A DNA stretch of 33,639 bases from Parcubacteria group bacterium Gr01-1014_30 (GTDB lineage Bacteria > Patescibacteriota > Minisyncoccia > Minisyncoccales > 2-12-FULL-40-12), in the NCBI GenBank assembly GCA_007376185.1, contig VMFS01000006.1, positions 1-33,639 of the forward strand. The letters are read 5' to 3'. This document shows, in pieces, positions 30,563-31,303 of the stretch. The position numbers and the translations under genes were made by a program. The first letter of the stretch is position 1; the number at the start of each line of letters is the position of its first letter. The notes under the pieces were generated by a model. The model was not told where the DNA came from. It saw only the letters and a program-made list of their open reading frames with translations, and did not search any database.

Positions 30563-31162
30563 TCAGTTCACTTCTGACATTGCTTTTTCCACCCCTTCTT
30601 TTAGCGCAAATTCAAGGGCTTGGCAAGTTTTTTTTATAACTTCTTTTACCACTCTTTCTTCTCCTTTCGTAAACTTCCCCAAAACAAATTTCTCGTCCAC
30701 GGGTTTCTCGTCCACGGGTTTCACCCGTGTATTTTGTGCCTTTATTCCTATACGGAATCTGACAAAGTTTTTCGTTCCAAGCTCGTCAATGATTGATTGG
30801 ACTCCTTTGTGGCCCGCAGACCCCCGGCCGAGTGAAATTTTGAGTTTACCCAGCGGCAAGTCCAGGTCATCGTGAATTACGTATAAACTTGTAACGTGTA
30901 ACTTGTAACGCGAAACTAGTTTTTTGACTGCTTTGCCAGAGTCGTTCATACCAGGTAGTGAAAATTCGACCACTGCCGGAGGCAGTGATAATAAACGAAG
31001 TTTAGTCGAATTTCTACTACCTTGCATAAAAGTTGTCGGTTTTGCCAAAATCACGCCTTTCAAATTCAAGCACTCAAGTTCGTCAATGACTCTTGCACCG
31101 ATGTTATGCCGCGTTTTTTCAAACTTTTTGCCAGGGTTGCCCAATCCAACAATAAGTACCAT
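30563..31162 (-). CDS. pth: Peptidyl-tRNA hydrolase with in-frame insertion
   Basis: MVLIVGLGNPGKKFEKTRHNIGARVIDEL, KPTTFM…MNDSGKAVKKLV, VIHDDLDLPLGKLKISLGRGSAGHKGVQSIIDEL. Confidence 0.95.
   Translation of the reverse strand: MVLIVGLGNPGKKFEKTRHNIGARVIDELECLNLKGVILAKPTTFMQGSRNSTKLRLLSLPPAVVEFSLPGMNDSGKAVKKLVSRYKLHVTSLYVIHDDLDLPLGKLKISLGRGSAGHKGVQSIIDELGTKNFVRFRIGIKAQNTRVKPVDEKPVDEKFVLGKFTKGEERVVKEVIKKTCQALEFALKEGVEKAMSEVN
30950..31027 (-). repeat. 78-nt hairpin insertion in pth
   Basis: GGTAGTGAAAATTCGAC (30954-30970) / GTCGAATTTCTACTACC (31005-31021), 15/17 paired; nested CACTGCC-GGA-GGCAGTG (30971-30987); ATG on both sides in frame. Confidence 0.85.
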
Positions 31163-31168
31163 AAAAAG

Positions 31169-31303
31169 ATAGAATCTAGAATTTAGAATATAGAATCTAG
31201 AAGGAGAATACGGAATATAGAATAAAAAGGGGAAGTTCTCCTTAAATTCTTAATTCTAAATTCCCATTCTATATTCCAGATTCAAGATTCCAAATTCTAA
31301 ACT
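31169..31303. repeat. Large imperfect inverted repeat made of period-7 units
   Basis: AGAATCT AGAATTT AGAATAT AGAATCT AGAAGG… and the facing arm TTCTTAATTCTAAATTCCCATTCTATATTCC…; inner AGGAGAA/TTCTCCT. Confidence 0.75.

Follow-up and report, generated by a model that had tools for sequence, protein, structure and literature searches.

In the reduced genomes of Rickettsia, palindromic elements (RPEs) of about 150 bp are located in frame within protein genes and are expected to be translated with them, 44 of these elements having been reported inside genes of R. conorii (PMC10969869). GTAG REPs, units of 20-40 bp that carry a GTAG tag in unpaired form at one end, can lie inside genes as well (PMC3733652). 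Besides, blocks that are bypassed during translation are known from T4 gene 60, where a stop codon follows 3' of the take-off codon and the second ORF is out of frame, and from the mitochondria of Magnusiomyces (PMC5009743).

The locus described here lies in a window of 33,639 nucleotides, i.e., the whole stretch of DNA analysed, from Parcubacteria group bacterium Gr01-1014_30 (contig VMFS01000006.1, positions 1 to 33,639). Its gene for peptidyl-tRNA hydrolase (pth) contains a hairpin-forming insert, which in all likelihood represents a MITE-like, non-coding palindromic element of Parcubacteria that entered the gene in frame and is translated through. Like an RPE, it is a palindrome that lies in frame in coding genes, the likeness being one of description and not of compared sequences. 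Unlike RPEs, it belongs to another lineage and is clearly intragenic in only two of 104 copies, about half of the copies being located at start codons. With MITEs it shares the short length, the lack of coding capacity, the terminal inverted repeats, the target-site duplication and the dispersed occurrence; in contrast to these, no autonomous partner was found, and the element features a long, near-complete hairpin with an invariant A-C mismatch and a strong association with start codons. The resemblance to the GTAG REP/RAYT system consists in the palindrome, in GTAG motifs near the ends and in a Y1 transposase gene in the same genome. Still, an assignment to the GTAG REPs was rejected, as the element measures 59-311 nt, carries GTAG in paired form in both arms, generates a 4-bp duplication and has no copy beside the Y1 gene. 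The coding gap of T4 gene 60 and the byp elements of yeast mitochondria are likewise hairpin-forming inserts between matched codons of a gene, but the insert in pth is in frame and open, its matched codon is a transposition duplication and no stop follows the first ATG. A bypass of the gene 60 type was therefore rejected with regard to both stop codon and frame, and the matched ATGs lend nothing to it.

The pth gene and its insert

The pth gene (30563-31162, minus strand) encodes a product of 199 aa including the insert and is the only PF01195 locus in the genome, which comprises 769 kb in 11 contigs and is about 97% complete. The Pfam match of the product (5.7e-49) is split into two stretches. 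In an alignment with 25 relatives, the protein outside the insert is intact and conserved, including the motifs GLGNPG, TRHN, MNDSG and HDDLDLP, and the equivalents of the catalytic residues Asn10, His20, Asn68 and Asp93 (E. coli numbering) are present. The position of Asn114 is occupied by Lys here and in nearly all aligned relatives, which is comparable to Arg103 of T. thermophilus Pth.

Exactly between TTF and MN, the protein carries 26 extra residues (QGSRNSTKLRLLSLPPAVVEFSLPGM), and the Asn right after the second Met aligns with Asn68 of E. coli Pth, the proposed oxyanion stabiliser (PMC11994314). The extra residues result from a palindromic mobile element of 74 nt (30951-31024, minus strand, GGTAGTAG arm first), recognised by family membership and fold, and from a 4-bp target-site duplication, TATG, which follows the rule of the family. 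One copy of the duplication is located on the gene-5' side (31025-31028, minus strand) and the other on the gene-3' side (30947-30950, minus strand), the ATG of the latter preceding the codon of the catalytic Asn. The element and one TATG amount to 78 nt or 26 codons, and their removal yields TTF-MNDSG, i.e., the canonical Pth motif, just as the first-pass annotation had read it.

The left terminal inverted repeat CAAGGTAGTAGAAATTCGAC (31005-31024, minus strand) differs from the family by one substitution at its end (CCAGG to CAAGG), whereas the right one (30951-30970, minus strand) equals the family consensus. The nested hairpin noted in the first reading was located in the variable interior at 30971-30987 (minus strand, CACTGCC-TCC-GGCAGTG). 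A repeat search delivered an inverted-repeat pair with arms of 26 nt and 81% complementarity, and the RNA fold of 30940-31035 reached -38.5 kcal/mol (z = -7.5), with none of 200 shuffles being as good. Coordinates, fold and alignment thus agree on a near-complete hairpin insert beside the catalytic Asn. The frame in which the insert is entered (ATG CAA GGT AGT AGA AAT TCG ...) is free of stops, and a peptide such as LLSLPPAVVEFSLPGMNDSGK would derive from the insert. A single-sequence AlphaFold model of the 199-aa protein is not interpretable (pLDDT 38, pTM 0.27). The insertion had been regarded as recent, a view that conservation of the 26 residues in distant relatives would contradict; none of the 25 aligned Pth proteins, which belong to further genomes of the same order, contains them.

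Further peculiarities of the locus concern its length and its repeats. The stretch between HNIGARVIDEL and VILAKPTTF is mostly missing in the Pth described here (31076-31162) and in those of some related genomes (L028, L029, L035 and L036); this shortening before VILAKPTTF amounts to about 15-20 residues compared to most relatives and is independent of the insert. Small in-frame tandem duplications occur at 30689-30718 (15 nt twice, giving a VDEKP repeat) and at 30886-30913 (14 nt twice), and the gene as a whole carries several recent-looking insertions. Upstream of pth, the stretch 31164-31301 consists of ATTCTATATTCT / TAGAATATAGAAT repeats that are degenerate and could pair as inverted repeats.

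A family of palindromic elements in Parcubacteria

When the insert was used as a query against its own genome, further copies appeared, and an arm pattern allowing up to three mismatches detected about 13 arm pairs there. Beyond this genome, a similarity search found copies in 12 of 60 genomes. Within the order, 17 of 247 genomes carry exact arms, the reversed control pattern having found none, and within the class 16 of 387 genomes do, with up to 34 arms per genome. The carriers include Portnoybacteria, Nealsonbacteria, Azambacteria and other Parcubacteria, while the pattern was not found in viral contigs. As the same sequence recurs in the genome and in its relatives, the insert in pth is far beyond chance. 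The analysed set comprises 104 distinct copies, of which about 13 belong to this genome and the remaining ones to other Parcubacteria. The copy in pth is unique in sequence among them, and its nearest relative (92% identical) resides in a genome of another family of the order, a match between families which suggests, from sequence comparison, a recent movement of the element. A literature search found no paper on such palindromic elements in Patescibacteria, and this family of mobile elements in Parcubacteria is apparently undescribed so far.

All copies follow the layout CCAGGTAGTAGAAATTCGAC - variable interior - GTCGAATTTTCACTACCTGG, with conserved terminal inverted repeats of about 20 nt and interiors that differ in length and sequence; most copies measure near 70 or 130-150 nt. 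GTAG is paired with CTAC of the opposite arm in nearly all copies. At arm position 10, A stands opposite C in 102 of 103 distinct copies, adjoined by a G-U pair, and this conserved mismatch hints at a recognition of the folded strand and its orientation. Two-sided arm changes that preserve pairing were counted 66 times, compared to column shuffles that averaged 15, never exceeded 26 and ignore the relatedness of the copies. Regarding the flanks, identical 4-mers enclose 42 of 62 copies, with 9.6 expected if flanks are paired at random, and the equality peaks sharply at a width of 4; in the larger set, 69 of 104 copies show this identity. The duplicated 4-mers are varied, CATA being the commonest besides CATT, CAAG, CACA, CGTG, TTGA, CAAA and TTTT. 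Because such varied but exact 4-bp duplications characterize the family, the paired ATGs in pth are to be regarded as a TATG target duplication and not as evolved take-off and landing sites. Accordingly, one of the two origins initially proposed for the duplicated ATG holds in refined form, the duplication comprising the four base pairs TATG.

At L088 (G000:C9:80000-80680), L101, L105, L106 and L112, copies are nested or adjacent: one element has entered the arm of another, the duplication there being TTTT, and several copies surround an rplJ-like start.

None of the interiors is long enough to contain a transposase gene. An autonomous element was sought by means of unpaired or widely spaced arms (in the long loci, arm pairs spaced by 0.33-4 kb with an ORF between them) and none was found. 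DDE transposases of PF01609 or PF13701 were absent from the own genome, and the DDE genes in relatives are without flanking arms. A gene for a Y1 (IS200/REP-type) transposase of 210 aa is present (L026, G000:C6:22653-22973), no element copies lie beside it, and Y1 enzymes are not known to generate target duplications. As an autonomous partner was not found within the transposase families searched, the element is referred to as MITE-like.

Copies at start codons

The ATG of the 3' duplication opens at least 60 codons in 51 of the 104 copies, a count that includes pth itself, where this ATG is internal; at any other offset, only 0 to 3 copies do so. Examples are L096, L097, L099, L103, L147, L148, L155, L160, L221 and L232, with about 40 others. 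Ten of the start-codon genes were identified by Pfam, namely SecA, MreC, UvrB, DnaX, HisS, SmpB, NDK (in two genomes), an S1-domain protein and ArgS. For SecA, SmpB and ArgS, the profile matches set in no more than a few residues from the Met of the second ATG, which is therefore a real start. The start of ndk carries an element of 137 nt in one genome (L221, G434) and of 132 nt in the other (L232, G401), due to either inheritance or repeated insertion.

This position exceeds what the purging of coding insertions would deliver. A total of 551 kb from two genomes rich in the element contains TATG 3229 times in coding regions, 573 times in intergenic regions and 303 times at called starts. Of the copies with TATG-type duplications there, 19 are located at starts, compared to 6 at other places. 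Relative to the 35% that would result if only insertions into coding sequence were purged, this excess is significant (p = 3e-5), in a test whose gene calling was crude and in which some copies are possibly inherited and not independent, e.g., those of NDK in two genomes.

Among the copies at starts, insertion lengths show no preference for multiples of three, and a frame opened by the first ATG is mostly closed by a stop within the element. An N-terminal extension was thus rejected as a general cause of these copies, and the genes presumably initiate at the second ATG. Likewise, a special targeting of promoters was rejected, since the frequency of upstream -10-like boxes is similar for the starts with copies (13 of 51) and for control TATG starts (22%). 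A Shine-Dalgarno-like motif was found in only 12.5% of the control starts, and the rarity of such motifs may explain why the loss of the native leader is tolerated. This start-codon habit was unexpected and is a more interesting result than the insert in pth.

Probable translation through the insert and competing explanations

For all copies, the element and one 4-mer were removed by a script and ORFs spanning the resulting junction were searched. Clearly intragenic copies are those in pth and in L089, an ORF of 408 aa (G000:C11:44974-45041). Both insertions comprise 78 nt, are in frame and open, and are read in the same frame of the element (GSRNS...VEFSLPG in pth, GSRSS...AELSLPP in L089). 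Two more junction-spanning ORFs, at L022 and L233, are small, and it is doubtful whether they are real. L107, L175 and L193 were considered as disrupted genes and rejected, as inspection placed them at gene boundaries, where the following gene begins directly behind the element. The gene of L089 has no relative in 60 genomes, hence there is no empty site for comparison. Among the 104 copies, no intragenic one was out of frame; with only two intragenic copies, the chance of frame alone is about 1 in 9, so that their being always in frame is weak evidence.

Although scarce, these intragenic data favour ordinary translation. Skipped hairpins would need neither an in-frame length nor the absence of stops, and translation is therefore preferred over skipping. 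According to the proposed mechanism, the element would insert at 4-mers of the TATG/CATA type and duplicate them, and the insertion in pth would have been kept since its length of 78 nt is divisible by three and no stop occurs in the entered frame. Ribosomes would then translate the insert, and plain translation into a Pth of 199 aa with 26 extra residues directly ahead of the Asn68 equivalent's Met-Asn junction appears to be the best-supported reading of the sequence. Selection would have removed intragenic copies with stops or out of frame, while those at start codons would be tolerated since the duplication regenerates the ATG. Against this explanation, 26 extra residues adjoining a catalytic residue would be expected to hurt, and the pth described here may represent a newly arisen and failing allele of a single assembled population.

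The strongest of the rival explanations assumes that pth is inactivated or crippled, with the allele or lineage losing the gene or compensating by another peptidyl-tRNA hydrolase. The location of the insert directly before the oxyanion-stabilising Asn speaks for it, whereas the preserved frame and the intact, conserved rest of the gene make it unlikely. Moreover, in the roughly 97% complete genome no second Pth was found, and PF00472 is represented by only two loci, taken as RF1 and RF2, without a third PF00472 protein as an ArfB-type backup. Inhibition of Pth1 is reported to kill E. coli (PMC4929431). Since neither a second Pth nor an ArfB-like protein was found, the insert-bearing Pth is probably functional. 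Thus, where the first-pass annotation left open whether the enzyme tolerates the insert or the insert is skipped, tolerance is the more likely part, impairment being its alternative, and skipping is disfavoured.

Translation through the insert would be incomplete if the hairpin were functionally transparent to the ribosome, with start copies initiating at the ATG of its 3' base and some ribosomes on pth skipping the insert. We consider this quite improbable; if so, folding of the element would permit initiation at that ATG despite the displaced native leader.

Still less can be said for translational bypassing, in which the ribosome would take off at the first ATG, slide past the hairpin and land on the second one, leaving a normal Pth of 173 aa. 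A very stable hairpin between matched ATG codons, placed next to a catalytic residue, invites this idea, and precedents exist in the systems named above. Nevertheless, the codon match is accounted for by the 4-bp duplication found at most copies and arose as a by-product when the element inserted; the insert preserves the frame and contains no stop, and the putative take-off codon is followed by CAA and not by a stop as in gene 60; none of 104 copies is both intragenic and out of frame, so that no intragenic copy needs a bypass; and no feature of the element is specific to the intragenic position. The take-off and landing codons initially suggested are accordingly abandoned, and bypassing is very unlikely.

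An assembly artefact, conceivable for a multi-copy repeat in a genome of several contigs, deserves hardly any credence: the copy in pth is unique in sequence, the frame is exactly preserved, the 4-bp duplication fits the family, and 74 nt is less than the usual length of short reads. Removal of the hairpin from the RNA by intron-like splicing or processing, although suggested by clean boundaries and the hairpin structure, has practically nothing in its favour, as intron features were not noticed, the interior varies in length and sequence across copies, and a length of 59-311 nt is not what would be expected of a self-splicing intron.

Significance

Translation through the insert would place a mobile element inside an essential enzyme, beside its active site, in parallel to the Rickettsia palindromic elements. 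Besides, the habit of sitting on the starts of genes such as secA, smpB, hisS and argS, together with the regeneration of the ATG, suggests a route of survival for the element in a small, gene-dense genome whose starts are mostly without a recognisable Shine-Dalgarno motif. It also opens to experiment the question of how initiation proceeds on genes whose leader is replaced by a hairpin of 70-150 nt.
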